Assembly (NCBI GenBank): GCA_030041545.1
Contig: JASHNQ010000091.1
Coordinates: 1 to 54,383 of the forward strand
Length of the DNA: 54,383 nucleotides
From: a candidate division FCPU426 bacterium
GTDB lineage: Bacteria > Oederibacteriota > Muellerivitia > Muellerivitales > Muellerivitaceae
Direction: 5' to 3'
Shown here: in pieces, positions 2,735-25,318 of the stretch
Layout of the letters: each line of letters opens with the position of its first letter
Numbering within the stretch: position 1 is the first letter of the stretch
Notes under the pieces: generated by a model
The model's database searches: none
What the model saw: the letters and a program-made list of their open reading frames with translations, nothing else
What the model was told of the DNA's origin: nothing
Position numbers and translations under genes: made by a program

Positions 2735-3670
2735 CTAACGGATCACCTTGAACATGCGCTGCTGGAGCGCCTGCACGTTGTCCCTGAAATTCGGGACCCC
2801 CATGGCCCCGATGATGCCCGCCGCCAGGACGCAGCACACCACGATGGTCCAAAGGTGGTTTTTCAAAAGCTCGGCCTTGGCCTGGGAATCCGCCGCTTCC
2901 GCCGGGCTGGCGGAGCGCTGGGTGGCCAGGGCCCAAACCAAGGCCGCCAGCGTGAAGGCGGCCACGGCCAGGGCCGCCAGGGCCGCGAACCCGGCGTAGC
3001 CCACGCTGTGCCAATAGATGAACCAGGCCCGGCCCTTGATGAGTTTCTCGTCCAGCTGCCCCCAATAGCGCGAGTCATAGCTGTTGTCCCGGTTGTCCCC
3101 CATCATGAAGTAATGGCCGGGCTCGACCGTGACGGGCCCGAAATTGACCTTCACCGAGTCCACGCCGTCCTCGGAAATCGCCGTCATGGGGGTCATCACG
3201 TGTTTCACGTAGGGCTCCACCTGCAGCTGCCCGTTCACGTAAAGCTGGCTGTCCTTCAATTCCACCACGTCGCCCGGGATGCCGATGCAGCGTTTGATGA
3301 AGTCCTTGGAGCGGTCCTCGGGGAACACGAAGACCACCACGTCCCTGCGCTGGGGCTTTTGGAACTCGAGGAACCGAGGCGTCTGGTTGAGGAAGGAATA
3401 GCCGTACTCGTATTTCTTCACCAGGATGTAGTCCCCCACCTGCAGGGTGTCCTCCATGGAGCCCGAGGGGATGGTGAAGGGCTGGACCCAGACGGCCTTG
3501 AGGGACAGGGCCACGGCCATGGCGATCCAGAAGGAATCCAGGGTTTCCATCATGCCCGCGACGAAGGGGTTGGCGCGGAGCCTGGGCACCCCCCGGAGGA
3601 CGGCCTCCACCACCGTGAGCACCCCGAAAAGCACCCAAAGGATCGAATTCAAGTTTTCAATAATGTTCAT
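2735..3670 (-). CDS. lepB: Signal peptidase I with extended membrane C-terminus
   Basis: Membrane serine protease that removes signal peptides from exported proteins. The catalytic serine is Ser71 in PFTIPSGSMEDTL and the general-base lysine is Lys126 in KDFIKRCIGIPGD; the MGDNRDNSYDSR box follows at about residues 190-201. The N-terminus has two hydrophobic segments (about 8-22 and 45-62). Unusually, after the catalytic domain there are about 90 more residues with two predicted membrane spans (about 220-250 and 272-293). It lies between lepA and hemW in the same direction. Confidence 0.92.
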   Translation of the reverse strand: MNIIENLNSILWVLFGVLTVVEAVLRGVPRLRANPFVAGMMETLDSFWIAMAVALSLKAVWVQPFTIPSGSMEDTLQVGDYILVKKYEYGYSFLNQTPRFLEFQKPQRRDVVVFVFPEDRSKDFIKRCIGIPGDVVELKDSQLYVNGQLQVEPYVKHVMTPMTAISEDGVDSVKVNFGPVTVEPGHYFMMGDNRDNSYDSRYWGQLDEKLIKGRAWFIYWHSVGYAGFAALAALAVAAFTLAALVWALATQRSASPAEAADSQAKAELLKNHLWTIVVCCVLAAGIIGAMGVPNFRDNVQALQQRMFKVIR

Positions 3671-3784: not shown

Positions 3785-5584
3785 TTACTCTTCGACTTTC
3801 AACACCGCCATGAAGGCCTCCTGCGGTATTTCGACGCTGCCGATGGCCTTCATGCGCTTCTTCCCTTCCTTTTGTTTCTCCAAAAGCTTCCGCTTGCGCG
3901 TGATGTCGCCCCCGTAGCACTTGGCCAGGACGTCCTTGCGGCGCGCCCGCACCGTTTCCCGGGCGATGATCTTGCCGCCGATGGCGGCCTGGATGGGCAC
4001 CTCGAAGAGCTGCTGGGGGATGATCTCCTTGAGCTTCTCCGCGATCAGGCGGCCCCGGACCTCGGCCTTGTCCCTATGCACCATGAAGGAAAGCGCGTCC
4101 ACCGGCTCCCCGTTCAAGAGGATGTCCACCTTCACCACCTCGCCCGCCTTGTATCCGATGGGCTCGTAGTCCAGGGAGGCGTAACCCTTGGTGAGGCTCT
4201 TCAGGCGGTCGAAGAAGTCCATGACCACCTCGGCCAAGGGGAGCTCGTAGGTGACCAGGGCGCGCTGGGTGTCCAGGAAATGGGTGTTTTTATGCATCCC
4301 CCGGCGCTCCTGGCAGAGCGTCATGACCGCGCCGATGTAGTCGGCGGGCACGATGATCTTGGCGTCGATGTAAGGCTCCTCAATCTCCTCCACCTCCGAA
4401 AGGTTGGGCAATTTGGAGGGATTGTCGATGGTGAGGGTCTCACCGTTCGTCTTTTTGACCTTGTAAACGACGCTGGGGGCGGTGGCGATGAGGTTCAGGT
4501 TGTACTCCCGCTCCAGCCTTTCCTGCACGATTTCCATGTGAAGCAACCCCAGGAAGCCGCAGCGGAACCCGAAGGACAGGGCCACCGAGGTTTCGGGCTC
4601 GTAGGACAGGGCCGCGTCGGAAAGTTTCAGCTTGGCCAGGGCCTCCTTCAGGTCGTCGTAGTCCTCCGAGGCGACCGGGTAAAGGCCGCAGAAGACCATG
4701 GGCAGCACGTCCTTGAAGCCCGGTAGCGGCGAGGGTGTGGGGCGGCCTTCCTCCGTGACCGTGTCGCCCACCTTGGCGTCGCGCACTTCCTTGATGTTGG
4801 CGGCCACGTAGCCCACCTCGCCCGCCGAGAGGCTTCCGGTCTTCTCCATCTTGGGCTTGAACACGCCCACTTCCTCCACCTCGAAGACCTTGGCCGTGGA
4901 CATGAGCTTCATCCGGGTGCCTTTGGCGATGGCGCCGTTCATAAGCCGCACGAACACGATCACGCCCCGGTAGATGTCGTACATGGAATCGAAAATCAGG
5001 GCCTTCAGGGGTTCGCAACTTTCGCCCTGGGGGGGCGGGATGCGCTTCACCACCGCCTCCAGGATGTCCTGGATGCCGAGGCCCTCCTTGGCCGAGGCCA
5101 GGATGGCCTCCTCGCCCGGCAGGGCCAGGGATTCCTCCATTTGTTTCTTGCAGCGCTCCGGGTCGGCCGCGGGCAGGTCGATCTTGTTGATGACGGGCAC
5201 GATGGAGAGCTTCTGGTCGAAGGCCAGGTAGGCGTTGGCGAGCGTTTGGGCCTCCACGCCTTGGGAGGCGTCGATCAAAAGCAGCGCCCCCTCGCAGGCC
5301 TTGAGGCTGCGGGAGACTTCATAGTTGAAGTCCACGTGGCCGGGCGTGTCGATGAGGTTCATCTCGTACCTTTGGCCGTCCTGGGCCTGGTAGAAGAACC
5401 GGACCGCCTTGGCCTTGATGGTGATGCCCCTCTCGCGCTCCAGGTCCATCTGGTCCATCAGCTGGTCGCGCATCTCGCGCGGCGGGATGGCGCCCGTGAA
5501 TTCCAGCAGGCGGTCCGCCAGGGTGCTCTTGCCGTGGTCGATGTGGGCGATGATGCAGAAATTGCGGATGTGGGAAAGCGACAA
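3785..5584 (-). CDS. lepA: Elongation factor 4 (LepA)
   Basis: Ribosome-associated GTPase that back-translocates or remodels stalled ribosomes. The 599-residue length is the family norm. The GTPase motifs are AHIDHGKST (13-21), [18 protein letters not shown] (about 79-86) and NKIDLP; the LepA-specific C-terminal domain is present ([20 protein letters not shown]). The start is TTG at 5584 with GGAG seven bases upstream; an ATG at 5591 is in another frame. It is the first gene of the minus-strand lepA-lepB-hemW-hrcA-grpE group. Confidence 0.96.
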
Positions 5585-7502: not shown

Positions 7503-7533
7503 AAACTCGGACCACCTTTGAGAAGGGAGGTTT

Positions 7534-8645: not shown

Positions 8646-9473
8646 TCAATAAAAATATATATCATCCACGCCAAAATCAACGTTGACGGACTTGCCCCCG
8701 TTGGCGTCCCCTTCCTCAAACAGCAAGGCCATGACCTCCTCCAGGTTGACCCCCGTGAGGGTGGGCGGGGTGGGGATGAAACCGTAGCTGGTGGTCAGGT
8801 CCGCGAAGGTCGAGCTGAATTGGACCCAGCCGTTGGTGGTGCTGGTGAAAGTGTAGCCGAAATAGTTGTAACACCCGGTCGTGGCGGTGCAGGTGCCGCC
8901 CGAGCTGAGCTCGGCTTCCTGGGTGGTGGCCACGTAAAAATACCGGGCGGCGGCCGTGTCGTCCGGCTTGATGTTGTAGTAAAACTGGACGCCGGTGAAA
9001 AAGGACATGTTGTAGCCGCTGACTTGGCCCGCCGGCACGGAAAAATGGGGGGGGGTGACGTCCAAGATCCCCTGCAATTCGATCGAGGGATAGGTGCCAT
9101 CGGCGGTGTCGTTGACGTAGCCCGCGACGAAGCAGGCGTTGTCCCCGGAGCCGTCGGGCCCGCCGCCGGCGATGGTCATGTTTCCAAATTCATACGTGAC
9201 GCCGTGCTCGTTCGTTTGGGTGAAGTTGTTAACCACGCTCCACAAGCCGGGGGAAACGACGACGTTGCCGGGAGCCCCGATCTCGTAAAGGTGGGAATTG
9301 GTTTGGTTCGTGGGATCGGGCGTGGGGTTGAGGTTGCCCTTGAAATTGGCCACTAGGCCGTAGTCGGGGCTGGTGCCAGGGGCCGGGTAGGCGCTGGTGG
9401 GCGCCGTCTTACCCTGGCACCCCAGCCAAACCAGGGACACCGCCGGCAACAACAGCATCACTAGGAAGCTCAT
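8646..9473 (-). CDS. Secreted beta-sandwich lipoprotein B (paralog family)
   Basis: A 275-residue exported protein of unknown function. The ATG at 9473 has GAGGG five bases upstream and opens a signal peptide (MSFLVMLLLPAVSLVWLGC, Cys19 the likely lipid-modified residue). It shares with its two paralogs a YPSIELQGIL segment, FTGVQFYYN, a DD pair, GGTCTATTGCYNYFG, a GW-phenylalanine segment and a terminal VDDIYFY. The two cysteines after GG are conserved among the three. It lies 103 bases downstream of a beta-barrel gene on the same strand. A sugar-binding role is inference. Confidence 0.72.
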   Translation of the reverse strand: MSFLVMLLLPAVSLVWLGCQGKTAPTSAYPAPGTSPDYGLVANFKGNLNPTPDPTNQTNSHLYEIGAPGNVVVSPGLWSVVNNFTQTNEHGVTYEFGNMTIAGGGPDGSGDNACFVAGYVNDTADGTYPSIELQGILDVTPPHFSVPAGQVSGYNMSFFTGVQFYYNIKPDDTAAARYFYVATTQEAELSSGGTCTATTGCYNYFGYTFTSTTNGWVQFSSTFADLTTSYGFIPTPPTLTGVNLEEVMALLFEEGDANGGKSVNVDFGVDDIYFY

Positions 9474-9481
9474 AACAACCC

Positions 9482-9571
9482 TCGGTCGACGGTTGGCGGC
9501 CGGCGGCAAAACCGCTTGCGTTGCGGCCTCACGCTTCCCCCGTGGACCGTGAACTGTAAGCTGCCGGCTGC
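9482..9571. repeat. GTCGACGGTTGG-type intergenic inverted repeat
   Basis: TCGGTCGACGGTTGGCGGCC at the left and GGACCGTGAACTGTAAGCTG at the right form imperfect complementary arms. Comparable pairs lie at 16935-17022, 22590-22670, 24412-24491, 25396-25535, 31166-31240 and 43262-43360, always next to gene ends. Confidence 0.5.
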
Positions 9572-9576
9572 TTTTT

Positions 9577-11958
9577 TTAAAATTCGATCTCATAGGTCAA
9601 TCCGATGAATTGGTTGTGCAACGTTCCCGCCACCTGCCCCACCGTGGGAAGGTCGTTCCCCCAGGCCAGGTCGTAATCCAAATCCACGCTCGAGTTGCGG
9701 TCGAACCGGAAGGTCGTGGAGAGCATCCAGTCCTCTTCCGAGCCGTTCACCGTGAAGACCTGGTAGCTGCCCAGGTCCGTGTTGTCGAACTCGTAGCTGG
9801 CCTGGGCCATGGTGGTCCCGTCGATGCCTTCCTCCGACCCGTTGGCGCTGCGCACGCCGTAGGCCGCGGCCACCTGCCATTCCTTGAAAAGGCCCACCCG
9901 GATCCCCCCCAGGATATCCGAGGAGGTCAGGGTCCCCACCTGGCTGGTGGTCTGCTCGTACCGCACGTTGATCCCGGCCTCCAGGGGCGTGGTGAGCCCG
10001 ATGTTGGGGCCGAGGTCGAAGGAGGGGCCGAAGTTCACGTAGGTGAACTTCCGCATGGGGGCTTCCCCGTCGGGCGCAGGGTCCAGGATCTGGAAGCCGG
10101 TGGCCGTGTCGTTCACCACAATATTAGCACTGATCTCCTGCACCAGGTAGGCGGCCCCCTTGATTTTAAGGGATTTCTGCTGGAGCGTTTCAACATCCAC
10201 ATCCAGGCCCACTCCCTCGCGGTTGGGCGTGGCCAGGCCGTAAGGGAAGGTGTTGTCCTCGGTGCGGTCATAGTAGCTGAAGATGCCGCTGGGCCGGGGC
10301 ACGGAGGTGAGGAAAAACTGGGTCCGGTTGAGGGGCGCCTCGAAAAGCCCCCCCCCGGCCAGGGAAAGATAGCCCGTATTGGGCAGGAAGCTGGGGGTGA
10401 GCGAGTAGTTGTCCTGCCGGGTCTGGGCCAGGGGGGTGTAGAAGTTGGGGCCCACGTTCAGGTAATGCAGCGAGATCTTGGAATCCCCCATTTGGAGGAA
10501 GGGCTGGATATTGAGGGCGTAATCGCTGACGGTGGTGCCGCCGGGGTCCTGTTCGTTGTCCACGTAGGAGGAAAAAGCGCCCTCATATTCCAACCCCGCG
10601 TAGACGTCGTCCCCCAGCCCGACCCTCAAGGTGGGCCGGAAGCTGCTGATCAGGTACTGGTGGGCCCAGGTGGAGGGGTTGTAGGGCGCGTAGGCGGAAC
10701 CCGGTTCCTCGCTGTCCAAGGGTTCCCAAATGTAGACCTCGTACTCCTCAAGGTCCAGCTGCCAGGAAGTGTCGTCCACGTACCATTTCTTGGATTTCAG
10801 GTCGGCCTGCCCCGCGAAAATCCATCCGCTGAAGTCGTCCGGGTCGATGTACCATTTTTCGGCCTCGCTGAAGGAGTTGTTGATCATATTGGCGAAGCCC
10901 GAAACCTGGAAGGACTGCAGCAGGTCCGAGTCCGGCCAGCCCAGGGCCGTGCCGATTTCCAGGCCCCGGAAGGGCCAGGCCGGTTCCTGGTCGAAAAAGC
11001 TCTCGTACTTGAGCGTCTCGTCCCCCCGTGCCATCATTTCGGGCACGTAATAAAGATCCAGGTCGTTGCGGTTCCAGATGGTGAAGGGCGTGTAGGCCTC
11101 GTAAAAATCCCCCACCTTGGCCGACATGAAGTCCGGGTTGAAATCCGCCTCGATGCGGCGCAGCGCGATGAAGTCCTGGGTGGCGCTGGGGGTGTCGACG
11201 GTGATGTTGTAGTCCAGGCCCTCGATGGGCAGGCCGAAGGTGCCCAGGCGGACGATCCCGCTCCAGCGGACTTGGGTGCCGACGCTTCCGGTGGGTTCCA
11301 GGTCCAGGTAGCCGAGCATATAGCGGTCGCCCGCGTTGGGGAAATCCAGGTTCGGGTCCCCGTAATATTGCTGGCTGTTGGCGAACATGCGGCCAAGGCC
11401 GTGGATGGACATGCTGGGATACTCGGTGAGCCCGTTGACGCTCTTCCACAGGTCGAACTGGGCGGCCTCGGCCTTGGACACCTGGTCCTCCAGGTCCGCC
11501 TTTTGGTCCCTCACCAGTTTCAGCTCGAAATCATAGGCCGCCTGGAGGGAATCAATGTTTTTCTCGGCCTCGGCGATCTTCTGGGGATCCTTCCAAAGGG
11601 GGCCGGCCTCGGTGGAGGGGGCCGCCGTTTCCCCGGCCGCCGGCGCCTGCGCGGAGGCGTTGGCGCCTTCCTCGGGCGGCGGGGGCGGCAGTTCCATGTC
11701 CGCCTGGGCCAGCAGGATTTCCTTGAGCTTCTGCTGGGCGCCGTAAACCCTTTGGGCGACCTCGAAGCGGGTCAAGGGCCCCTGGGAGGCCCCGGGGGGT
11801 AGCAGCCCCGTGTCCTCCAATTGTTGCAGTTGGGCGTAGGTGGGGTCGCCCGCGGGCACGAGGTCGAATACGTGGCTGTCCGTGAGGGCGCAAGCGCCTC
11901 CCCAAGCTCCCAGGAAGGCGGCCACGCCAAGGGCCGCGATTTTAGAAATGCGCGTCAT
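9577..11958 (-). CDS. Outer-membrane beta-barrel protein with SLH-like N-terminus (1)
   Basis: A 793-residue exported protein. A signal peptide (about 1-24, ending GGACA) is followed by an SLH-like segment (YAQLQQLEDTGLLPPG, PLTRFEVAQRVYGA), a Pro/Ala-rich stretch and a coiled coil (about 125-170). The rest alternates like transmembrane strands and ends in YEIEF, the C-terminal Phe of outer-membrane barrels. It is paralogous to the next gene: both share GDF.(E/Q).YTP.T.WN, RG...T..GWP, a P.FY(T/S)P.AQT box and PYG.ATPNREG. The start overlaps the end of that upstream gene by 17 bases, so they are translationally coupled. Substrate is unknown. Confidence 0.8.
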   Translation of the reverse strand: MTRISKIAALGVAAFLGAWGGACALTDSHVFDLVPAGDPTYAQLQQLEDTGLLPPGASQGPLTRFEVAQRVYGAQQKLKEILLAQADMELPPPPPEEGANASAQAPAAGETAAPSTEAGPLWKDPQKIAEAEKNIDSLQAAYDFELKLVRDQKADLEDQVSKAEAAQFDLWKSVNGLTEYPSMSIHGLGRMFANSQQYYGDPNLDFPNAGDRYMLGYLDLEPTGSVGTQVRWSGIVRLGTFGLPIEGLDYNITVDTPSATQDFIALRRIEADFNPDFMSAKVGDFYEAYTPFTIWNRNDLDLYYVPEMMARGDETLKYESFFDQEPAWPFRGLEIGTALGWPDSDLLQSFQVSGFANMINNSFSEAEKWYIDPDDFSGWIFAGQADLKSKKWYVDDTSWQLDLEEYEVYIWEPLDSEEPGSAYAPYNPSTWAHQYLISSFRPTLRVGLGDDVYAGLEYEGAFSSYVDNEQDPGGTTVSDYALNIQPFLQMGDSKISLHYLNVGPNFYTPLAQTRQDNYSLTPSFLPNTGYLSLAGGGLFEAPLNRTQFFLTSVPRPSGIFSYYDRTEDNTFPYGLATPNREGVGLDVDVETLQQKSLKIKGAAYLVQEISANIVVNDTATGFQILDPAPDGEAPMRKFTYVNFGPSFDLGPNIGLTTPLEAGINVRYEQTTSQVGTLTSSDILGGIRVGLFKEWQVAAAYGVRSANGSEEGIDGTTMAQASYEFDNTDLGSYQVFTVNGSEEDWMLSTTFRFDRNSSVDLDYDLAWGNDLPTVGQVAGTLHNQFIGLTYEIEF

Positions 11959-14206
11959 AGGTGAATCTCCAAATTTGGTCGACCCGGTCGAAGTTTTGGT
12001 CCGTGCCGATATTGCCCGTGTATTGGTTGAGGAACACGTCCATCCGGATGTCGAAGGTCTTGCCGAAGGGGCAAAGGATACCGAAGGCCCAGGCGGTCTT
12101 GGTGAGGTTCAGGGTCGTATAGTCGAAGGCGGGGGCGGAGGAAGTGTCGATAAAGACGTATTGGGCCAGGGTGGGCGGGTCCCCCTCCCCGGAGAGCATG
12201 TACTCGCCCCCGCTGGCCTGGGCCTGCTCGTAGGCCACGGAGAGCACCACCGTGTCGAACCCCGCAACGGGCACGGTAAAGTCGGCCGCGCCGATCAGGG
12301 TATTGACCGTGAAGTTGGGCAGTCCCCCGCCCAGGTCCGTCACCTGGTCCTTGTAATCGAAGGCGATCCGGTAGGTCTTCGCCTTCAAATCAAAGGCCTT
12401 GGCGAAATCCACGACCAGGCCGGCCTCATAGCCGCTGAAGGTGCGGGCGATGGAATCCCCGTCCGCGGGGGTGAACCCCGTGCCCGGGCTGTTGATGACG
12501 TAATTGGGCTGGATTTCCTGCATCTGGATCGTATAGCTGCCCAGGGGGTCAAGCCAGCCGTTGTGGCCGATTTGGAAGTCCCATCCGCCCACCAGCCCCT
12601 CCCGGTTGGGGGTGGCGTCCCCGTAAGGCAGCATGTTTTCCTCCATGCGGTCGTAGGGGGCGAAGCTGGGTTCCCCGGCGCTTTGGATGGGATAGGTGTT
12701 GAGCACGCCGATGAGGTCCTCATCCTCCCCGAAGTCGTCCGTGGCCAGGTAGTCGCTGCCGCCGCTGCCGGGCGTGTAGGCGTTGGTTTGCGCGCCGGGC
12801 GAGTAGAAGTAAGGGCCGATGTTGTAATACTTGGCCGTCAAGTGGAGCCCCTCCACGTTCAAGGCCCCCGTCCCCAGGACCGCCCAATCCTGGGATTCCC
12901 GCTGGGGATCGTTGATGTCGTCCTGGAACTCGCTTCCGGCGCATTCCAGGGTGCCGCCCAGGGAGACGTCCGTGTCCAAGGGGATGGTCAGGCGGCCGTC
13001 CAGGCTTCCGATCTGGTACTGGCGCGCCCAGGTGAGGTTGTCGTTGGGGTCATAGGGGGTGTCGGCGCTGTCCGGGTCGTCCCAGATCAAAAGGCCCGTG
13101 CCGCCGATTTCCAGGTTGTTGTTGAGGAAGCTCATCGTGGCGCGGGAGCCGGCGTAATAATCGCCGAAGCGGTATTCGGTGGCCTGCTTCACCGGGCCCG
13201 CCATGGCCTGGAAGTTGAGGATGCTCAGGAAGGGGTCGTTCGGCCAGCCCACCTCGGTGGAAACTTGGAAGCCCCTCAGTTTCCAGTCGGGCTCATGGTC
13301 CAGGAACTCCAGTTCCTCCACGTCCTTTCGGTTGCGGTAATAGGAAAGGGGTTTGATCAGGGTATAAACCGGGATGCCGTTGTTCCAAAGCGTGAGCGGG
13401 GTGTAATGCTGGAAGAAATCCCCGGCCGTGAGCGTGCAATACTCGTTGTAGTCGCTGAGGGAAATCCACCGCAGGTCGTACTTGGGGTGGGGGTCGGCGT
13501 AATAGAAGCCCACGGTCCTCCAAAAGCGGATGTCGCCGTTGAAAAGCACCATGGGCACGGGAATGCTCCTCAAGTCCATGTCCATGAAGATCATGGAATC
13601 GTAATCCGCGGCCGGATAATAGGCGTTGGGGCCGAAACCCCTGAAATCATAGAAATAACCCCGGGAAAACCCCGACACCGTGGTTCCCGTGCGCTTGAGG
13701 AATTCCTGTTGCTGCTGGGCCAGGGAGTCGTTGCGGTGCTCCAAGGCGTAAATGCGGTCCTCCAATTGGGGCAGATCCACCCCCAGGGCCGCCAGTTCCT
13801 GCTTGAACTCCTCCACCAGTTCGCTGACGCTCTTGGCGGCCGCGGGCGAGGGCAGGCCCGCTCCGGGGGCGCCCGGCAGGGTCGGCGAAGCCGGTGGCGG
13901 AAGCGCGGAAGGCAAGGTATTGTCCCCCCCACTGGGCAGGGGCGGCGGCAGCTCGGCTTGGGCCAGGATGATCTCCCCGGCCTGGGCGGTCAATTGGGCC
14001 ACTTGGAGGTTGGTGAGCTCGGCCACCGGTTGGGAAGGCGTGGGGATGAGGCCGTCGGCCACCAACTCCCCCACGTCCGCGTTGATCCAGTTGTCCCGCA
14101 CGGTGGAGGAAAGCGTGCCATGCGCGGCCCAAGCGGGGGCAACCGCCGCCAAAACGGCCGCGAACAAGGCCAGGAAGGTTAAGGTTTTAAAGTCGTACCG
14201 TTTCAT
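11942..14206 (-). CDS. Outer-membrane beta-barrel protein with SLH-like N-terminus (2)
   Basis: A 754-residue exported protein. The signal peptide MKRYDFKTLTFLALFAAVLA ends in APAWA at about residue 27. It is followed by an SLH-like stretch (VGELVADGLIPTPSQ, LTNLQVAQLTAQAGEI), a Pro-rich linker, a coiled coil (about 115-160) and a long strand-rich region ending FTYDAHF. It is a paralog of the 793-residue product (YYNIGPYFYSPGAQT; LPYGDATPNREGL). Of two adjacent ATGs, the one at 14206 has better spacing from AAAGG; an upstream in-frame extension is unlikely. SLH-like segments may tie the porin to peptidoglycan or cell-wall polymers, by analogy with cyanobacterial porins. Confidence 0.8.
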   Translation of the reverse strand: MKRYDFKTLTFLALFAAVLAAVAPAWAAHGTLSSTVRDNWINADVGELVADGLIPTPSQPVAELTNLQVAQLTAQAGEIILAQAELPPPLPSGGDNTLPSALPPPASPTLPGAPGAGLPSPAAAKSVSELVEEFKQELAALGVDLPQLEDRIYALEHRNDSLAQQQQEFLKRTGTTVSGFSRGYFYDFRGFGPNAYYPAADYDSMIFMDMDLRSIPVPMVLFNGDIRFWRTVGFYYADPHPKYDLRWISLSDYNEYCTLTAGDFFQHYTPLTLWNNGIPVYTLIKPLSYYRNRKDVEELEFLDHEPDWKLRGFQVSTEVGWPNDPFLSILNFQAMAGPVKQATEYRFGDYYAGSRATMSFLNNNLEIGGTGLLIWDDPDSADTPYDPNDNLTWARQYQIGSLDGRLTIPLDTDVSLGGTLECAGSEFQDDINDPQRESQDWAVLGTGALNVEGLHLTAKYYNIGPYFYSPGAQTNAYTPGSGGSDYLATDDFGEDEDLIGVLNTYPIQSAGEPSFAPYDRMEENMLPYGDATPNREGLVGGWDFQIGHNGWLDPLGSYTIQMQEIQPNYVINSPGTGFTPADGDSIARTFSGYEAGLVVDFAKAFDLKAKTYRIAFDYKDQVTDLGGGLPNFTVNTLIGAADFTVPVAGFDTVVLSVAYEQAQASGGEYMLSGEGDPPTLAQYVFIDTSSAPAFDYTTLNLTKTAWAFGILCPFGKTFDIRMDVFLNQYTGNIGTDQNFDRVDQIWRFTYDAHF

Positions 14207-14306
14207 CATGCCTTTCTCTGCGCCTCGGTGGTTCAAAAAGCCCTTCACCTGGCGGAGCCCCATGGGCTTGCCCGTGGCTCCGCGAAGACCAAGCTTCGCT
14301 TGGTCT

Positions 14307-16895
14307 TTAAAACAAGAAATAAAGCTCCGAAATCCACTGTCCCGTGTGGTAACTGTTGGCCGGCACGTAAGTGTCGTGGAACGTCACGTCCTTGTACCGC
14401 AGCTCGAACTTGCCGCTGCCCCAGGGGATATCGTAGGACATGCCGCAGCCCACCACGGTCGTGAGGTAGTCCACCAGGGGGTAGGTGTAGGAGGAATTCC
14501 AGGTTTCCCAGCCGTACTCGCCCATGATGTCCACGTGGCGGAAGATCTGGTACATGCCCGTGAAGTCGTAGACCCTCTGCTCGAAGAGGTTGGGGATGGT
14601 GGTGGAAAAAGTGGAGGGGTTGGTCGAAGTCGAGGCCTGGCCCGTCAGGTTGGTGGCCGCGTTGCTGGCCGTGCCCGACACCACGTTGTCGGTGTAGAAA
14701 ACCGAGCCGTAGAGGGGCTGTTCGATCCCCAGTATCTTGTTGAACTGGAACTTGGTGGTCCACGTGACGTAGTTGTAGGTCTTCAGGTCCGTCAGGGTGG
14801 CGTACTGGTTTTGGCCGTTGGAGAAGGTGGCCGGCGCCTGGCCCGGGGCACCGGGCGTCAGGCTTAAAGTACCGCCGTTGTTGTAAATAGGCAGGATGAT
14901 GGGGATGATCTCCGAGCTCAAAGTGAACTGGTAGCGGGTCTCGTCGCCCAGGGTATCGCCGTCGTTGCGGATGTCCTCGATGTTGTTGTCGTACTGCTGC
15001 CGCGCCGGTTCCCAGGGCGGCGTGGCGTAGCCGCCCCACAGGTCAAGGCCCCAGATGCCCTCATCCTCCTGGTAGAAGGGCTGGAGGATGTTGTAGGCCT
15101 CCACCACGTTGTAGCCTTCCGCGTCGTCGAAGGCCCGGTATTCGCTCTTGCTGGCCACGTTGAGATTGACCACGATGTCGTCCAAAAAGGAAGGCCAGCT
15201 TTTCATCCAATCCTGCTGGCGGCCGTCCCAGCCCAGGTTGAGGCGCCAACCGTAGCGGTCGCTCTCCAGGGTGTCCGCCTCGCCCACCAGGCCGTACATG
15301 TTCAGGTCCGCGTTGGGAACCGCGCTGGGGCCGGGATAAACGCCGTATTGCGAGAAATTCACGCCCGACATGGCCACTTTGCTGGAATAATCGGCGAAAC
15401 CGTCGCTGATGGCCGTGTAGAAGAAATTGAGGGGGTAATAGGAGAGCTCCACCTGGCCCGCGGGCGCTTCCAGGGCGGTGTTGGTGGGGATGCCGGTGGG
15501 GCTGCCGGGCGCGCCGATGTCGTAAACGCCGGAAAGCAGGCTGGACAGGCCGACCTCCGCGTTGAGGGTGACGGGCGACAGGTTCGCGGTGAAATCGGCC
15601 TGGTAGGTTTTCAAGTCCAATTGGGGCGTCTCGTTGACGCCGAAGTCGTCGTTGATCCACTCGGTGGAGAAATCCGCCTGTACGGGCCCCAGGGGTTTGC
15701 TGATCTTTAAGCCCTCCTCGAAGCGGTCCGGCTGGGGCGGGGCGTTGGAGGTGCCCATCCTTCCCAAGAGGTAGATCATGCGCGCGTCGGACCCCAAAAG
15801 GGGCAGGTTGGTGCCGATTCCGTACACGCCGTCGAAAACCGGGTCGAAGCTGGAAATAATGGCGCCCCCCGCGCTCGTGGGCGGCACGGCGCTGATGTTG
15901 TCCATGTAATCGTCCCAGGTCTTCTGGTCCTCGTCGTCGGAGAAGTGCTTGATGTCGGCCGGATCCTGGAACAGGCGCAAGGCGGTGGGCCCGATGCCCC
16001 GCGTGAAATCCCCGAAGGTCAGGGCCCCCGGATAGTCTTCCACGTCGAAATGGGTTTCCCAATGGCCCAGGGGGCCGTCAAAATTGTAGGTCACGTCGGG
16101 GTTATAGATGTAAAAGGAAACGGGCGAGGAGGCGTCGGAAGCGTTGCCCCCGTAGTAAATGCCGGCGAGCCCAATGTCAATGGCGCCCTTGCCGCCCAGG
16201 TCGCTGTACATGCTGAAGTCCATTTCGTTTTCCGTTTTGAGGAAATTGGCCACCGTGACCCCCGACATGCCCAGGTCCTCGAAGCGGAAGCGGGTTTTCC
16301 CGCTGAAGTTCGGTATTCCCCCGCTTTTATTGGCGGTTTTCCAGATGGAATTCACCTCGTCCTGGGCGTCCTGGAGCGCCTCCAATTCCTTTTCCTGTTC
16401 GTTGATCCTCTCGTCATAGAGGTTGAGGCGGGACATGAGCAGGGCCGCCTCATCCTTGAGTTCCTTCAAGAGATCGTCGATCTCCTTGCGGGCTTCGGCG
16501 TTGATGGGCATGGGCGCGGGGGCGGGCGCCGCCGGGGCGGTTTGGGGAGGCGGCAGGGCCGGGGCGGGCGCCGGGACCTCGGGAACGGGCGTTTCGGTGG
16601 GGACGGGCGTGGAGGTGGCCGCAGGCTGCAACAACTCGGGGGACGTGATGCGGGCCTTGGCTTTTTCGGTGTAAAAGGCCAGTTCCAGGCGGGTGACGAT
16701 CTTGCCTTCGTCCAGGACCTTTTGGTCCTGGGGGTCCAGGAGGCCGTAAACCTCCAAATGCTTGACCCTCTGGTAAAGGGGCTCGTCCGGGTTCACGTCA
16801 TCGTAAGGGTTGGCGGAAACCGGCGCGGCCAGCCCCAGTGAAAAAAGGGCCGACAAGCCAAGCGCCGCGATGAAGGTTTTCGGCCGGAGGATCAA
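14307..16895 (-). CDS. Outer-membrane beta-barrel protein with SLH-like N-terminus (3)
   Basis: An 862-residue exported protein. The TTG at 16895, preceded by GAAGGGG, gives a normal signal peptide (ILRPKTFIAALGLSALFSLG to PVSA); the frame stays open upstream through a repeat but without a signal. The SLH-like segment (EPLYQRVKHLEVYGLLDPQD, IVTRLELAFYTEKAKA) precedes a Pro/Thr linker, a coiled coil (about 135-190) and a barrel ending in ELYFLF. GDFTRGIGPTALRLFQDPAD resembles ligand-protein barrels with a central passage. It is more distant from the two downstream barrels. It is followed after 100 bases by the second barrel gene. Confidence 0.78.
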   Translation of the reverse strand: MILRPKTFIAALGLSALFSLGLAAPVSANPYDDVNPDEPLYQRVKHLEVYGLLDPQDQKVLDEGKIVTRLELAFYTEKAKARITSPELLQPAATSTPVPTETPVPEVPAPAPALPPPQTAPAAPAPAPMPINAEARKEIDDLLKELKDEAALLMSRLNLYDERINEQEKELEALQDAQDEVNSIWKTANKSGGIPNFSGKTRFRFEDLGMSGVTVANFLKTENEMDFSMYSDLGGKGAIDIGLAGIYYGGNASDASSPVSFYIYNPDVTYNFDGPLGHWETHFDVEDYPGALTFGDFTRGIGPTALRLFQDPADIKHFSDDEDQKTWDDYMDNISAVPPTSAGGAIISSFDPVFDGVYGIGTNLPLLGSDARMIYLLGRMGTSNAPPQPDRFEEGLKISKPLGPVQADFSTEWINDDFGVNETPQLDLKTYQADFTANLSPVTLNAEVGLSSLLSGVYDIGAPGSPTGIPTNTALEAPAGQVELSYYPLNFFYTAISDGFADYSSKVAMSGVNFSQYGVYPGPSAVPNADLNMYGLVGEADTLESDRYGWRLNLGWDGRQQDWMKSWPSFLDDIVVNLNVASKSEYRAFDDAEGYNVVEAYNILQPFYQEDEGIWGLDLWGGYATPPWEPARQQYDNNIEDIRNDGDTLGDETRYQFTLSSEIIPIILPIYNNGGTLSLTPGAPGQAPATFSNGQNQYATLTDLKTYNYVTWTTKFQFNKILGIEQPLYGSVFYTDNVVSGTASNAATNLTGQASTSTNPSTFSTTIPNLFEQRVYDFTGMYQIFRHVDIMGEYGWETWNSSYTYPLVDYLTTVVGCGMSYDIPWGSGKFELRYKDVTFHDTYVPANSYHTGQWISELYFLF

Positions 16896-16934
16896 AAAAA
16901 ACCCCTTCAACAGCAGATTGCGGTCGGCGGCCCC

Positions 16935-17022
16935 CAGTCGACGGTCGACAGCAACTTCGAAAAAAGCCTTTGCTGTGAACTGTGGACTATCAGCTGCGAA
17001 CCGCCGACTGTGGACTGGTTTA
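16935..17022. repeat. GTCGACGGTCGACAG-type intergenic inverted repeat
   Basis: CCAGTCGACGGTCGACAGC at the left can pair imperfectly with GCGAACCGCCGACTGTGGAC at the right, with GTGAACTGTGGACT between. It fills the gap between lipoprotein C and the third barrel gene. It belongs to the same family as 9482-9571. Confidence 0.55.
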
Positions 17023-17793
17023 TTAGTAGAACTCGACTTCATCCACCCAAAAATCGATGTTATAGGTCCCGGCCACGTTGTTGGCGCTGTTGGCCCACCG
17101 CAGGTCGATGAATTCCTTCAAGTGGTCGGTCAGGTCCGGCGGCGTGACGGGCGAACCCCATCCCGATTCCCTTTTGATGTCGGCGAAAGCGTAGCTTTTT
17201 TGGGCCCAATCGGGGGTCGTGGACAAATCCTCGCCGAAGTTGTTAAAACACCCGTCGGTGCAGGTGCCCCCGTTGGCCGAGGGGAGGGTGGGCGCCGTGC
17301 CGATGCCGAAGCGCCGCTTGAGGGCTTGGTCGTCGGAGGGGCATTTGTAATAAAACCGGATTCCCGTGAAGGCGCTGGCGTCGAAATAGCCGCTGGGCTT
17401 TAAATTCCCCTGGAGGGTGAAGGCGGGATAACTGGAATCCCCCTTGTCGGTCAGGCTGCCCGCGATATGGGCGGCCATGGCCGTTCCGTTGGCGCCGGGG
17501 GAGGCGATGAAGTCCCCGCTCAAGGTGTTGCCGCCGAAGGCGTAGCCCAGCCATTGGCCCCCGCCCCCGCCGTAGAGCTTGGCGCTGGTCGTTTTCGAGC
17601 CGTCGTCGAAATTGCAGATGACGCATTGGTCCTTGGGGACGTTGACTTTCTTCTGGTTGGCGTCGGGGTTGGCGAGGCCTTGGGCCAGGGAAGCGTTCTT
17701 GGACCCTTCGTTGAGGAAGACCGCGCCGCAGCCGGACAAGAGGCAAAAAGCGGACGCGCCCAGCCAAACGGAAACACCGCGGAAGCGAGCCAT
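17023..17793 (-). CDS. Secreted beta-sandwich lipoprotein C (paralog family)
   Basis: A 256-residue lipoprotein. MARFRGVSVWLGASAFCLLS runs into a perfect lipobox LLSGC with Cys22. The mature domain has CNFDDGSKTT, SSYPAFTLQGNL, FTGIRFYYK, DD, RRFGIGTA, GGTCTDGCFNNFGED, SGWG and the ending NIDFWVDEVEFY, shared with products A and B. The opening FDDG and the VD.VEFY ending resemble CIA30 or family-11-like carbohydrate-binding folds; this is inference. The ATG at 17793 has AAAGG at good spacing. It is the first gene of the minus-strand operon that includes the three barrels, and an operator-like palindrome lies 182 bases upstream. Confidence 0.77.
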   Translation of the reverse strand: MARFRGVSVWLGASAFCLLSGCGAVFLNEGSKNASLAQGLANPDANQKKVNVPKDQCVICNFDDGSKTTSAKLYGGGGGQWLGYAFGGNTLSGDFIASPGANGTAMAAHIAGSLTDKGDSSYPAFTLQGNLKPSGYFDASAFTGIRFYYKCPSDDQALKRRFGIGTAPTLPSANGGTCTDGCFNNFGEDLSTTPDWAQKSYAFADIKRESGWGSPVTPPDLTDHLKEFIDLRWANSANNVAGTYNIDFWVDEVEFY

Positions 17794-17974
17794 AGCCACC
17801 CTTTCTTTGAGGAAACAAATCGTCGGAAGTTTTTGAAACGGATTCAAAAACTTTTAAAGCGCCACAAAAAGAGCCGAATCTTTATAGTGTCTGGAAGGTT
17901 TTGAAGCGGGGGGTATTCTACTAAAAAGGGTTAAAAACCGGCTATCTTTTTTTACGCAAGATGAAGGGGGGACC

Positions 17975-18044: not shown

Positions 18045-21000
18045 TCAGTCGTCTTTTTTCGGGGAATCGCCGTCCTGGTCCATGTCCATTCCCTTGAGGG
18101 CGGGCGCGTTGGATTTTTTCAGGTAAGCGAAATCAAAGGCCTTTAAATCCTCCCCCGGCTTCTCCACCATGACGGCCGTCATAAAGCGGTTGTCCCGCTC
18201 GGGGCGGTCCTCCTTGGGAATGTTGATGAAAAGGCCCTTCACGCGCAGGATTTCGCCCGCCGGGAGGTCAAAGGGCCCCACGCGGGCCAAGTCCGTGTCA
18301 TAATCCTTGGACGCGTCGATCTGGTGCAGCACCAGCCCCTTTAAGTCCACCGCCGAAGTATTGTGGATTTCAACGCGAAAAGGCACGGGCACCCCGGCTG
18401 GGACCCGCTTGGGGGCGAGGATGGACACTTCGAGGGGCTCCAGGCCCTCCACCTGCCGAAGGGTGGTAAAGGCCTTGCCGCCCGCCACCAGCCATTCCAT
18501 GGAGCTGTAGGGCCCCTTGACGCCGTACACGATGCGGTAAAGGTCGTGCCAGAACATTCCCAGGCTCGAATTGACGGGGAACCAGTTGCGCAGCGTCTCC
18601 ACTTCGCGGTCGTAAAGCTCCTCGGGACCCGGGGGGTCCAGCGATTTCTGGACCCAGTTGAAATCCACCATTTCGCCCATGGCGTACATGCCGCTGCCGT
18701 GGGAAAGGTATTCGGGCCATTGTTTTTCCATGGACTTCAGCGTGCCCCGGTCGCCCTGGTACAGCATGATCTGGTTGAAATTGACCCCCGCGTCCACGTC
18801 CATGGCGGGATCCTGCCCGTGCTCATGGCCCATCTGCCAGCCCAGGGTAAAGGTGAAAACGGGTTTGGTCATCTTCGCCTCCTCCAGGATGTTCCTCAAG
18901 GTCAGCGCCACTTTGTGGGCCCGCCACCAATCGAACAGGGCCAGTACCTGGCGGTCCTCTTTCCTTTCCACGGTCTTGGCCAGCCAGTGGATGCGGTCCT
19001 GGCGGGAAAAGGACCCGTAACCCTCGGGCACCGGGGGAGCCATGTCGTTGACGAACTCGTCCACCATTTCATAGCCCGCGTCGCCGGTGCGCACGTAATC
19101 CAGGCCCACCATGTCCACGTCGGGATCGCCGTTCATTTGTTCCAGGAAGTCGAGGATGTCCTGCCGGCGCTTGGGGTCTTCCAGGGAGATGAACCGGCTT
19201 TGCACCACCTCGTCCGTGTCCGGATCGTAGCCCAGGGAAAAATTGTAAGGGGCCTGGTTCCAGGCGTCGCCCACGACCTTGAAGGTGGTCATGTAGGCGG
19301 CGAACTTAAGTCCCGCGGCATGGGCGGCCTTGGCGTATTTTCGGCCCACTTCCATGTCGGTGCGGCTGAAGGGGAAGTCCTTGGCGTTCAAGCGGTCCCA
19401 AACGGAGGTTTGCCCCATCAGGTAGGCGTAAACGTTGGCGCCCATGAACTTGGCCCAGTCAATGGCGTTGGCGGCCCTCAAGGAGTCGCTTCCATCCAAG
19501 GCCGGCACCGCCCCGCCGATGAGCTGCTTGCCCCCCTCCATGGTCAGGGCCGCGTAACCGGGGATCATGCCGCTGGGTTTCAAGGGCGCAATGGTGAAGG
19601 CGGATTCGAAAACCTTGGGTTTATCCCAGGAGGGCGAGGATATCTCAACCTCGGCCACATAGGTTCCGGGCGACGGGTTGTAAGGAATGGGCCAATTCCC
19701 GGTGAACCGTCCGTGAGCCGTATCTTTGGAAAGGCCGATTTTGGTCCTATCGTCAACGATAGAGACCGGTTTCCCCTCTTGGAACACTTCCACCGTGGCG
19801 TGCATGTCGGGGAAGGAACCCATCTGCTCGTGGTTGATCCTCACCTCAAAGGGCACCAGCTCATACCTTAAAAAGTTACGGGTGGGCATGACCGCGATCA
19901 CATCGGGGATCATCTGGGCCACATTGGGCGCCAGCACCCCCAACTTGGGGGATTCGGAGGAAAGGGTGGCCTTGGCGATCAGAACCCCGCCTGCGAGAAA
20001 ACCCGCGGCCAGGGCCCAGCGGATCGCCTTGGGGCCCAAAAACCATTGCAGCAGGGGCAGGAAGGAAATACGGAACCGGGGAATCTTCCAGCTCCACCGG
20101 GGTTGGTGGCCGGGCGCGGGGATTTCCAGTGGCGTCTCCAGGGTAGCCTGCGGTGAGCTTGTCGAACCCGCCTGCGGCGCGCCTGGCGTAGCTTGAGCGG
20201 AGCCAGGTGAGCTTGTCGAACCCGCCTGCGGCGCGGGAGCAGGGGGAACCGCAGCCGCCAAAGGCGGTTTAAGGGCGGGGGGAGAAGCTCCGGATAGCCT
20301 TTCGGGGGCTCCTTCCAGAACGGACGAACCTGGGACTTCGACGGGGGGGGCGGAGGCTTCGGGAGATTCGGGAAGGGGGTGAGGTGAAACAGCCGTGGGG
20401 GATTCCTTATCCGGAACCGCCGGCGGGGGTTCGGTGCCCCCGTGCTCCATGGGTTTTTCTTCAAGTTCGGGGACCGTCTCCGCCAGGGCTTCCGGCGCCT
20501 GCGTTAAGGAAGGCGGCATGGATTCGGAAATCGTGGGTTCGGGAAAAGAAACGGGGGGGACGGGAGGCACCGCTCCCTGGGCGGGAAGGGAGGCGCCCAA
20601 AGCCTCCTCGATTTTCTCCACTGAGGCTTCCATGGGATCCGCGGTTTCTTCTTCCACAAGGGAAGCCTGTGGGGCCATGGGGAAACTCCCATCCACAGGC
20701 TTGCCGGGCTCATCCTTGGACCAAGCCGTGGCCCGGTTCCCTTCCCCGGCGTCAGGCCATGCCGGCGGGTTGAACCAAGCCGGGGACGATCCGGGGGCTT
20801 CTTGCGGGGGGGCGGTAAGGGACGACCGGGCGGCTCCGGGGTTTTCCGGCGCCGTCCCTGGGGCCTTGGGCCTGGGCTTCCAAACCGACCCGGCGGCCTT
20901 GGCCGCGGCATTGAAGGCGCGGCCCACGCCCCCGGCGGCGGCCATCAAAACCGAACCCGCCAATGCCCCCGCCGCCCACGCGCCCCCCGCCCCCGCCCTC

Positions 21001-22574
21001 AACAGTTCGGCGGTTTTTTCCTTGAGGGTGTTGAAGTTGGCGGAAATGTTGAGGGACGCCGGTTCCACGGGTTTGGGCAGGCGGAAGGGTTCCAATTCCA
21101 AGCGGCCCTCTTGGGCCAGGAGCTCGGTGGGAAGGGGCGTCTCGCGCGTGAGCTTAACCACGGTTTCCACGTGGTAGGTTTGGGGGAACATGTCCAGCGG
21201 TTGGGCCCAGTCCACCGAATAGCCGTGCTTTACCAAAAGGGCCAGGTCCCGCGCCAGTGTGGCGGGATCGCAGGAAACGTACACCAGCCGCTCGGGATGG
21301 AAGGCGGTCACCCGCGCCAAAACCTCCGGCAGCACGCCCTTCCTCGGCGGATCCAAGATGGCGGCGTCGATCTGGCCGAGGCCCTTGTCCTTAAGCCCCA
21401 GGAGGATGGGAGGCACGTCGCCTTCCAGGTAGTCGATGTTTCCCTTGTGGTTGAGCTCCGCGTTGAACCGCGCGTCGTCCACGGCGGCGCCCACTTCCTC
21501 CACGCCCACGATGTAATCGGCCTGGTCCGAGACCGCCAGCGCCAGGGTGCCGATGCCGCTGTAAAGGTCCAGCACCGTGCCCCACTTTTTCTGGTGCTTC
21601 GGCTCGCCCAGGGCCTCGCGCACCAAGGCGTGCAGGATGTCGGCTTGGGCCGTGTTCACCTGCAGGAAGGAATGGAGGGATACCTTCAGCCTCAGGCCGT
21701 CGATCACCTCGAAATAATGGTCCCGGCCCGCCAGCACGCGGGTGGAGGGGCCGAAGACGATGTTGGTGCGGGAGGAGTTGATGTTCTGCAGCACGCCCAC
21801 CAAGCCGGGCACTTCCGCCGCGAGTTCCCGGGCGATGCGGGGCAGGATGTCGCCCAGGCCCTCCGGCGGCAACAGGGGTTTTTGCACGCGCTCCTCGGGG
21901 ACCTCGGTGCGCGTCACGAAAGCCAGGAGCGTCTCACCGGTCTTCATGCCGCGCCGCACGGCCAGGTGGCGCAGGAAGCCCTCGTGCTTTTTTTCCTGGT
22001 AGGGCGTCAGGCCCGAACGCTCGATTTTCCCGATCACCTTCTGCAGGAGGGCGTTGATCTCCTCCGCCTGGATGGGGCAGGTATGGTAGGGCACCAGGTG
22101 GTGGGAGCGGGGCTCATAAATGCCGGTGACGAAATGGCCGTCCCGCATGGAAACCACCGGCATGGCCTTGTTGCGGTAGGCGTAGGGAGCGGGGGAAGGC
22201 AGGCAAGGCTGGACCGTCACGTGGGGCAGGCGCCCGATGCGCGAAAGGGCGTCCACCACGAATTGGCGCTTGGTCTTGAGCTGGGAGGAGTAGTGGAGGT
22301 GCTGCCACTGGCAACCGCCGCATTCCTCGAAAATGCCGCAGGCGGGCGTGACGCGTTCGGGCGAGGGCCTCAGGATGGAAAGGATTTCGGCGGTGGCGTA
22401 ATGTTCTTTCACGCCGGTGACCTTGACGCGCACCCGCTCTCCCGGAAGCCCGCCGGGAATGAAAAGGGCGAAATCCTGGTAACGCCCGACCGAATCCCCG
22501 CCGAAAGCCAGGGAGCTGATCTCCAGTTCGATTTGGTCCCCGTATCGGACGGGTTGGGTGGTTTTCGTGCTCAT
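18045..22574 (-). CDS. Fusion: TrmA/RlmD-type rRNA uracil methyltransferase, linker, membrane span, glycosidase-like domain
   Basis: An uninterrupted 1509-codon frame. Residues 8-65 are a TRAM domain; Cys79, Cys85, Cys88 and Cys166 fit the [4Fe-4S] site of RlmD; DLYSGIGTLAL (336-346) binds SAM; DPPRKG follows; and Cys435 in YVSCDPATLARDL is the catalytic nucleophile. The methyltransferase ends near 480, the usual length. Then come an Ala/Gly-rich stretch (526-550), a Pro-rich acidic linker (570-825), a basic segment and a membrane span (about 851-870), a beta-sandwich (about 900-995) and a TIM-barrel-like region (about 1000-1370) with VDMVGLDYVRTG resembling the catalytic GHL10-type D-Y-R motif. 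An Ig-like tail ends at 1509. Positive charges before the span suggest the tail is outside. Joining an rRNA enzyme to a glycosidase-like domain is highly unusual. Confidence 0.8.
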   Translation of the reverse strand: MSTKTTQPVRYGDQIELEISSLAFGGDSVGRYQDFALFIPGGLPGERVRVKVTGVKEHYATAEILSILRPSPERVTPACGIFEECGGCQWQHLHYSSQLKTKRQFVVDALSRIGRLPHVTVQPCLPSPAPYAYRNKAMPVVSMRDGHFVTGIYEPRSHHLVPYHTCPIQAEEINALLQKVIGKIERSGLTPYQEKKHEGFLRHLAVRRGMKTGETLLAFVTRTEVPEERVQKPLLPPEGLGDILPRIARELAAEVPGLVGVLQNINSSRTNIVFGPSTRVLAGRDHYFEVIDGLRLKVSLHSFLQVNTAQADILHALVREALGEPKHQKKWGTVLDLYSGIGTLALAVSDQADYIVGVEEVGAAVDDARFNAELNHKGNIDYLEGDVPPILLGLKDKGLGQIDAAILDPPRKGVLPEVLARVTAFHPERLVYVSCDPATLARDLALLVKHGYSVDWAQPLDMFPQTYHVETVVKLTRETPLPTELLAQEGRLELEPFRLPKPVEPASLNISANFNTLKEKTAELLRAGAGGAWAAGALAGSVLMAAAGGVGRAFNAAAKAAGSVWKPRPKAPGTAPENPGAARSSLTAPPQEAPGSSPAWFNPPAWPDAGEGNRATAWSKDEPGKPVDGSFPMAPQASLVEEETADPMEASVEKIEEALGASLPAQGAVPPVPPVSFPEPTISESMPPSLTQAPEALAETVPELEEKPMEHGGTEPPPAVPDKESPTAVSPHPLPESPEASAPPVEVPGSSVLEGAPERLSGASPPALKPPLAAAVPPAPAPQAGSTSSPGSAQATPGAPQAGSTSSPQATLETPLEIPAPGHQPRWSWKIPRFRISFLPLLQWFLGPKAIRWALAAGFLAGGVLIAKATLSSESPKLGVLAPNVAQMIPDVIAVMPTRNFLRYELVPFEVRINHEQMGSFPDMHATVEVFQEGKPVSIVDDRTKIGLSKDTAHGRFTGNWPIPYNPSPGTYVAEVEISSPSWDKPKVFESAFTIAPLKPSGMIPGYAALTMEGGKQLIGGAVPALDGSDSLRAANAIDWAKFMGANVYAYLMGQTSVWDRLNAKDFPFSRTDMEVGRKYAKAAHAAGLKFAAYMTTFKVVGDAWNQAPYNFSLGYDPDTDEVVQSRFISLEDPKRRQDILDFLEQMNGDPDVDMVGLDYVRTGDAGYEMVDEFVNDMAPPVPEGYGSFSRQDRIHWLAKTVERKEDRQVLALFDWWRAHKVALTLRNILEEAKMTKPVFTFTLGWQMGHEHGQDPAMDVDAGVNFNQIMLYQGDRGTLKSMEKQWPEYLSHGSGMYAMGEMVDFNWVQKSLDPPGPEELYDREVETLRNWFPVNSSLGMFWHDLYRIVYGVKGPYSSMEWLVAGGKAFTTLRQVEGLEPLEVSILAPKRVPAGVPVPFRVEIHNTSAVDLKGLVLHQIDASKDYDTDLARVGPFDLPAGEILRVKGLFINIPKEDRPERDNRFMTAVMVEKPGEDLKAFDFAYLKKSNAPALKGMDMDQDGDSPKKDD
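20152..20235. repeat. In-frame TTCGACAAGCTCACC repeat within coding linker
   Basis: An identical 30-base unit occurs twice (20152-20181 and 20206-20235), beginning GGTGAGCTTGTCGAACCC on the plus strand. The 54-base period keeps the frame, giving APQAGSTSSP twice in the linker of the methyltransferase fusion. A related copy lies in another gene at 24952-24974. The unit resembles widespread bacterial TTCGACAAGCTCA repeats that normally sit between genes. Confidence 0.75.
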
Positions 22575-24493: not shown

Positions 24494-25318
24494 TTAGCGG
24501 CGGGGCGTGGGGCTCGCGGCGGGATTGGGTTTGGGTGCCGAGGCGTCGCCTTCCAAGCGCATGTAGTCCAGGTAAACCACCACCGGCTGGGCGGCGCCCG
24601 CTGTGTCCACCCAGAACCTTAAGGAACGGATGTTGCTTAAATCCAGCCGGTCCTTGGCCAAGTCCTCCAGGGGAATGGAGATGTTGGTGACCTTTTTGGG
24701 CGTCAACGGCCCGGCAGTGTCGAATAAATAGGCGTGGCTGTCGCCCACTTCCACGTGGTAGGTCACCGGTTGGGCCTGGTCGTTAAAAACGTCCATCTTC
24801 AAATCCGCGTAGTCCTGCCACTCAAAGACCTTCAGGGGCGTCACCGAATTGACGTCCAACACCATCTCTGGCTGCCAGGGCGTGGACGGCGTGGGCTCGG
24901 ATTCGGGCATGAACTGGACGGCCTGCGGCGCGCCTGCCTGCCCCGCGCTGCCCTGCGGTGAGCTTGTCGAGCCCGTTGAGGGGGCCGAACCCGCCTGCCC
25001 CGGGTTTGCGGAAGGGGTCGAGTCCGCCGCATCGGGAGCCGCGGGCGTGGCATCGGGCAGGAATTGGTCGGCCAGGAGGAAGGTGGCCTTGGCGCAATAC
25101 TTCCCGTGGGTCTTGTTTTGCGTGGAGGGCTCGATCTTCACGTAACCGCCGGTGGTCCAGTCGAAATCGTCGTTGGGGTCCTCAAAGTCATCGATGACCT
25201 GGATCTTGGCGGCGGCTTTGTGGCGTTTGAAGCCTTGGGTCAGTCCCAGGCCGGCCATCACGGCGTAAAGGAGTCCCAGGGCCAGCAGGATGCCGAGGAT
25301 TTGCATGAATCTGCCCAT
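24494..25318 (-). CDS. Membrane-anchored CIA30/CBM-like beta-sandwich protein
   Basis: About 274 residues. A single N-terminal membrane span (MQILGILLALGLLYAVMAGL) precedes an exposed domain that opens with IQVIDDFEDPNDDFDWTTGG and closes with RSLRFWVDTAG...VVVYLDYMRLEG. This is the opening and closing pattern of CIA30-like or CBM11-like galactose-binding folds. The middle carries a Gly/Ser/Pro insertion encoded by a TTCGACAAGCTCACC repeat in frame. The ATG at 25318 has GGA upstream; a TTG at 25336 is possible. It is the only gene directly downstream of the LacI-type regulator on its strand. Confidence 0.65.
   Translation of the reverse strand: MGRFMQILGILLALGLLYAVMAGLGLTQGFKRHKAAAKIQVIDDFEDPNDDFDWTTGGYVKIEPSTQNKTHGKYCAKATFLLADQFLPDATPAAPDAADSTPSANPGQAGSAPSTGSTSSPQGSAGQAGAPQAVQFMPESEPTPSTPWQPEMVLDVNSVTPLKVFEWQDYADLKMDVFNDQAQPVTYHVEVGDSHAYLFDTAGPLTPKKVTNISIPLEDLAKDRLDLSNIRSLRFWVDTAGAAQPVVVYLDYMRLEGDASAPKPNPAASPTPRR
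24921..24980. repeat. In-frame TTCGACAAGCTCACC repeat, second gene
   Basis: GCCTGCGGCGCGCCTG (24921-24936) and CCTGCGGTGAGCTTGTCGA (24952-24970) are the same two modules found in the methyltransferase-fusion linker. Here they encode GSTSSPQG in the middle of the beta-sandwich protein. The reading phase is the same in both genes. Confidence 0.7.

Follow-up and report, generated by a model that had tools for sequence, protein, structure and literature searches.

Several well-described systems resemble parts of the protein reported here. Methyltransferases of the RlmD/RumA type (TIGR00479; PDB 1uwv and 2bh2) and RlmCD (5xj1) share a TRAM domain, four Fe–S cysteines, a SAM domain and a nucleophilic cysteine, and the known RlmD proteins stop after the methyltransferase domain. 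FbcH, the cytochrome b/c1 precursor of Bradyrhizobium, is processed at an internal signal sequence to give two functional proteins, both of which belong to one membrane complex. The GH66 dextranase 5axg (Ig–TIM–beta) and the C-terminal domain of PgaB (4p7n and 4f9j) are exported TIM barrels that have conserved acids and are flanked by beta domains. RsgI anti-sigma factors, finally, consist of a cytoplasmic N domain, one membrane segment and an outer sugar-binding or glycosidase domain (PMC12203970).

The fused gene analysed here lies on a contig of a candidate division FCPU426 bacterium, of which the whole stretch of 54,383 nucleotides is referred to as the window (features in table 1). Its product has the methyltransferase architecture of RlmD, but in contrast to the known RlmD proteins it carries approximately 1030 extra residues with a predicted export signal and exported domain. 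The order inside domain, segment, outside domain is that of RsgI (PMC12203970), but the inner part is a complete rRNA methyltransferase instead of a sigma-binding domain, the segment appears to be cleavable, and Pfam and NCBIfam searches gave no family match to the RsgI anti-sigma N domain. Unlike those of FbcH, its halves are of unrelated function and compartment. The C half shares the barrel with conserved acids, the flanking beta domains and the predicted export with GH66 dextranase and PgaB, at an identity of about 10% and whole-chain TM-scores of 0.3–0.6. No description of an RlmD fusion of this sort was found in the literature searched.

Table 1. Position of the features in the window; residues are numbered in the fused protein.
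Feature	Position	Strand	Basis
Whole fused gene, 1509 aa	18045..22574	(-)	ATG start; 0 internal stops
RlmD half, aa 1-477	21144..22574	(-)	TIGR00479, 394.7 bits; motif alignment
Gly/Ala-rich, partly hydrophobic helix region, aa 518-566	20877..21023	(-)	alignment; hydropathy
Pro-rich linker, aa 567-845	20040..20876	(-)	dN/dS 0.37-0.55 where measurable
Signal-peptide-like segment, aa 846-869	19968..20039	(-)	core length, hydropathy; A-x-A in 9/9
N-terminal Ig-like domain of the putatively exported part, ~aa 889-1010	19545..19910	(-)	AlphaFold2, pLDDT mostly 75-96
TIM barrel, ~aa 1011-1376	18447..19544	(-)	AlphaFold2, Foldseek; invariants D1159, R1162, E1169, H1252, D1255, D1344
C-terminal Ig-like domain, ~aa 1377-1490	18105..18446	(-)	AlphaFold2 model
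lepA (EF4)	3785..5584	(-)	PF06421 + PF00009; 12.5 kb downstream, same strand
lepB-type signal peptidase I, proposed processing enzyme	2735..3670	(-)	Peptidase_S26, 170 bits

An old fusion under purifying selection

The initial annotation had described a single stop-free frame of 1509 codons, which is indeed present, and had suggested, as one of two possibilities, that a stop between two genes had recently been lost, which is not borne out: two families carry the fusion and a third contains a relative of it. The whole protein was searched against 59 related genomes and a profile of the C half against 45 genomes of the phylum, and the joint frame was found in each of the nine searched genomes that belong to the window's FCPU426 order, i.e. 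in eight of the window's family (its own genome included) and in one of a second family (G008). In G002 and G004 the fused gene ends at a contig end, yet it reads through the joint. In none of the nine was another RlmD-type gene or a further copy of the C domain found. Since the fusion is kept across at least two families, it is not a sequencing error, and the question of an indel is answered by this recurrence. At a larger scale, a genome scan in which each of 84,980 species was represented by one genome yielded 48 C-domain loci, most of them in candidate division FCPU426 (JASHQZ01, PLZG01, JAHFCG01, DAIDGV01 and DAHXKG01, all separate MAGs); fusions among these 48 were seen only in L078, which corresponds to genome G013, and in those FCPU426 loci that belong to this order.

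When the window was compared with three to four relatives, dN/dS amounted to 0.10–0.13 for the RlmD half, 0.10–0.23 for the C domain and, where measurable, 0.37–0.55 for the linker. Purifying selection thus acts on both halves, which represent two constrained parts with a loosely constrained spacer between them. The fusion is old and maintained, neither an artefact nor recent.

The relative in G013, which belongs to another family of the phylum, is a frame of 1148 aa with the same order of parts (L038 120-3527; G013:C161). Its N half scores 77.8 bits against TIGR00479, below the cut-off, and retains the Fe–S cysteines, with a degenerate SAM motif and without DPPRKG or the catalytic cysteine, so it is possibly a pseudoenzyme. 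A model of this half (pLDDT 74.5) matched RlmCD and RumA best, with TM-scores up to 0.72 by target, although the predictor's alignment contained RlmD relatives and the fold match is hence not independent evidence. No other RlmD was found in this genome, which is 89% complete. In the tree, the branches leading to G013 and to the clade of the window's order are long and arise close to the base of the FCPU426 clade, and the fusion may go back to one event common to both or to two.

A complete RlmD and a putative glycan-acting domain

Family score and motifs identify the N half as a complete RlmD: it matches TIGR00479 over aa 24–470 far above the curated cut-off of 183.55 bits, has its TRAM domain at aa 12–65 and, when aligned with unfused RlmD, contains the SAM motif, DPPRKG and the catalytic cysteine. 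Cys79, Cys85, Cys88 and Cys166, the Fe–S ligands, are invariant among the aligned RlmD relatives, and Cys435 is kept in every one of them but the decayed G013 copy; the motifs and positions originally assigned to a complete TrmA/RlmD-type enzyme are therefore correct. Homology suggests that this half methylates U1939 of 23S rRNA. In E. coli, loss of rlmD reduces the yield of a reporter protein mildly, at most twofold (PMC7056703), and the fusion thus need not have been costly.

The RlmD half is followed by the helix region, which is poorly conserved among the fused relatives and absent in G008, and then by the Pro-rich linker that had already been recognized. A dispersed repeat around GGTTCGACAAGCTCACC (window 20152-20235 and 24957-24986) is inserted in-frame, with two copies in this linker and one in a gene close by. 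The 17-mer of this repeat has eight exact copies in the genome, compared to none for the reversed control, and the linker of the close relative L010 is without it.

Sequence searches of Pfam, NCBIfam and PDB assigned the C half to no family, a named GH family included; weak matches to FixG_C, TRAPPC13_C and MG2 probably concern the Ig-like ends only. An AlphaFold2 model based on 22 homologues predicts with high confidence (pLDDT 88.5, pTM 0.88) a TIM barrel flanked on either side by an Ig-like domain, for which the best PDB matches found by Foldseek were GH66 dextranase (E 2e-14), GH2 enzymes, GH156 and the C-terminal domain of PgaB (TM-score 0.59 by target). The TIM-barrel-like domain postulated around VDMVGLDYVRTG is thereby corroborated, as this stretch falls within the predicted barrel and its Asp1159 and Arg1162 are invariant in 49 homologues. 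The same holds for R1136, E1169, W1216, W1217, W1246, H1252, D1255, Y1272, R1323, D1344 and R1347, a pattern expected of an active site, with the acids D1159, D1255 and D1344 located at strand ends as judged from secondary structure, not from coordinates. The structure prediction thus places the C half nearest to glycosidases, and we infer that it is an enzyme acting on a glycan.

Export signal or membrane anchor

An important question is how the two halves are distributed across the inner membrane. Throughout its relatives the C domain is exported, as far as N-terminal signals can predict: the unfused FCPU426 copies bear ordinary signal peptides, those of Zixibacteria and of one Coatesbacteria genome have a lipobox-like cysteine at the N terminus, and those of Elusimicrobia combine a basic tail with a single strong helix at their start. 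In the fused protein the hydrophobic span that had been placed near 851–870 is found at approximately aa 853–869. The fused segments have uncharged cores of 15–17 residues in seven of the nine sequences, with 21 and 26 in the other two, and peak 19-residue hydropathies of 1.46–2.18. The signal peptides of unfused FCPU426 proteins are similar (cores of 11–20, peaks of 1.55–2.21), whereas the Elusimicrobia anchors have cores of 18–25 and peaks of 1.84–2.94, with most reaching 2.3–2.9. Basic residues stand ahead of the fused segment, and in all nine sequences an A-x-A motif (AKA, AMA, AAA, ATA or ARA) closes a stretch that is otherwise variable, although these nine are kin and do not represent nine independent events. 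With a basic n-region, a short hydrophobic core and A-x-A, the features of a signal peptidase I substrate are present. Thus, of the 'membrane-anchored glycosidase-like domain' of the initial annotation, the exported glycosidase-like TIM barrel has stood, but the anchor is doubtful, and the segment bears more resemblance to a cleavable signal peptide in an internal position.

The short core, the unfused-like hydropathy, the conserved A-x-A and the preceding basic residues favour a cut by signal peptidase I. On balance, we consider it probable that the protein is a precursor cleaved after Ala869, which would leave RlmD inside and export the glycosidase-like domain. Here we infer topology, cleavage and both enzyme activities, as follows. 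The RlmD half would fold in the cytoplasm and methylate 23S rRNA, and the short hydrophobic segment would act as an internal Sec signal oriented with its N side inside and its C side outside, such that the Ig–TIM–Ig domain is sent across the inner membrane to act on a glycan there. Signal peptidase I would most likely cut after the conserved A-x-A, which in the window is A-K-A (867–869), i.e. before Thr870. RlmD and the linker would then stay at the membrane via a C-terminal helix, while the periplasmic domain would be released as in the unfused relatives. The precursor reading is in line with the intact RlmD motifs in what is the sole RlmD seen in each of the nine genomes, with the purifying selection on both halves, and with the signal peptidase I genes to which the domain gene is linked, both in the window and in G013. 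Against it stand the two long cores, and G013 has a weak site, AFG, in place of A-x-A. In addition, the first helix (aa 518–566) is in some relatives hydrophobic enough to span the membrane and, if it did so, would alter the topology.

A permanent anchor, i.e. an uncleaved type II membrane protein with RlmD tethered by the long linker and the TIM domain on the outer face, is the main alternative, though an unlikely one. The Elusimicrobia relatives, with their single N-terminal helix, appear to be anchored in this manner, in several relatives the fused segment reaches hydropathies (up to 2.18) that are borderline to good for a membrane span, and a long linker would allow RlmD to reach pre-ribosomes; A-x-A could even reflect helix packing within such an anchor. 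However, the core is short, its end is Gly-rich, A-x-A is conserved and the FCPU426 relatives bear signal peptides of the ordinary type. That rRNA modification would be tethered to the envelope, as the initial annotation had envisaged, is conceivable. That a membrane-spanning RlmD, or the non-catalytic fold of G013, would be coupled to an outer glycan-acting domain and thus relay the state of the envelope to ribosome maturation is improbable. More improbable still is an envelope sensor proper, in which glycan binding outside would change the activity or availability of RlmD through the segment, as RsgI does for sigma factors; such a sensor would fit the RsgI-like layout (PMC12203970) and the hint, from the G013 fold without catalytic residues, at a non-catalytic use of this half, but most unfused relatives seem to be soluble or lipid-anchored, and the domain thus works without an inner partner, and the linker is poorly conserved.

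It is very improbable that one frame yields two proteins by means of a second start codon just before the segment: Met codons do occur 20–35 residues ahead of it in L030, L032, L033 and L034, but their position is not conserved among other relatives, and no start led by a Shine–Dalgarno match of at least four bases lies within 160 codons upstream in the window, L010 or L034, so an internal start of the SD-led type, which the search covered, is not supported. An artefact or a recent stop loss can be dismissed, since the two genes, although separate in other families of the phylum, are not neighbours there (34 kb apart in G019, for example), and separate MAG projects recovered the same joint frame from nine genomes that belong to two families.

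Gene neighbourhood and biological meaning

In 18 loci of the genome scan, the unfused FCPU426 domain gene lies directly before lepA, with a spacing of 0–3 bases or an overlap except in L074 (approx. 240 bases). In L035 and L037, the unfused loci checked, lepA is in turn followed by a signal peptidase I gene, and the same is seen in the window. In the six fused genomes that have both genes on one contig, lepA is located 10–14 kb downstream on the same strand, i.e. the old linkage between domain gene and lepA is still visible, with envelope-like genes situated between the fusion and lepA. In the window these form a conserved set at 8646-17847, comprising a lipoprotein-like protein of 274 aa, one of 911 aa, paralogues of 793 and 773 aa and one of 315 aa, for which no Pfam match was found. 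Between this set and lepA, the stretch 6496-7515 encodes a protein that combines an IS200-like transposase domain with a DnaA-type helix-turn-helix. At the end of a contig (G000:C96:5-520), the same assembly also contains part of another lepA (63% to the query), which may be a contamination or a paralogue.

Elsewhere, the unfused domain gene of Elusimicrobia is found directly downstream of alaS (L064, L070, L071, L077, L089, L090 and L096), a Zixibacteria genome has glyS two genes upstream of the domain gene, and in G013 a signal peptidase I gene lies two genes upstream of the fused gene; in several other lineages a translation gene was not seen near the domain gene. These links to translation genes and signal peptidase I are suggestive only.

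Overall, a ribosome-modifying enzyme joined to an exported domain represents a conserved, single-copy combination in these bacteria, and its C half belongs to an unnamed family of putatively exported TIM-barrel proteins that is distributed across several candidate phyla and often encoded beside translation genes such as lepA and alaS. Cleavage by signal peptidase I would make the fused protein a bacterial precursor for two compartments, whereas an uncut product would place rRNA modification at the membrane.
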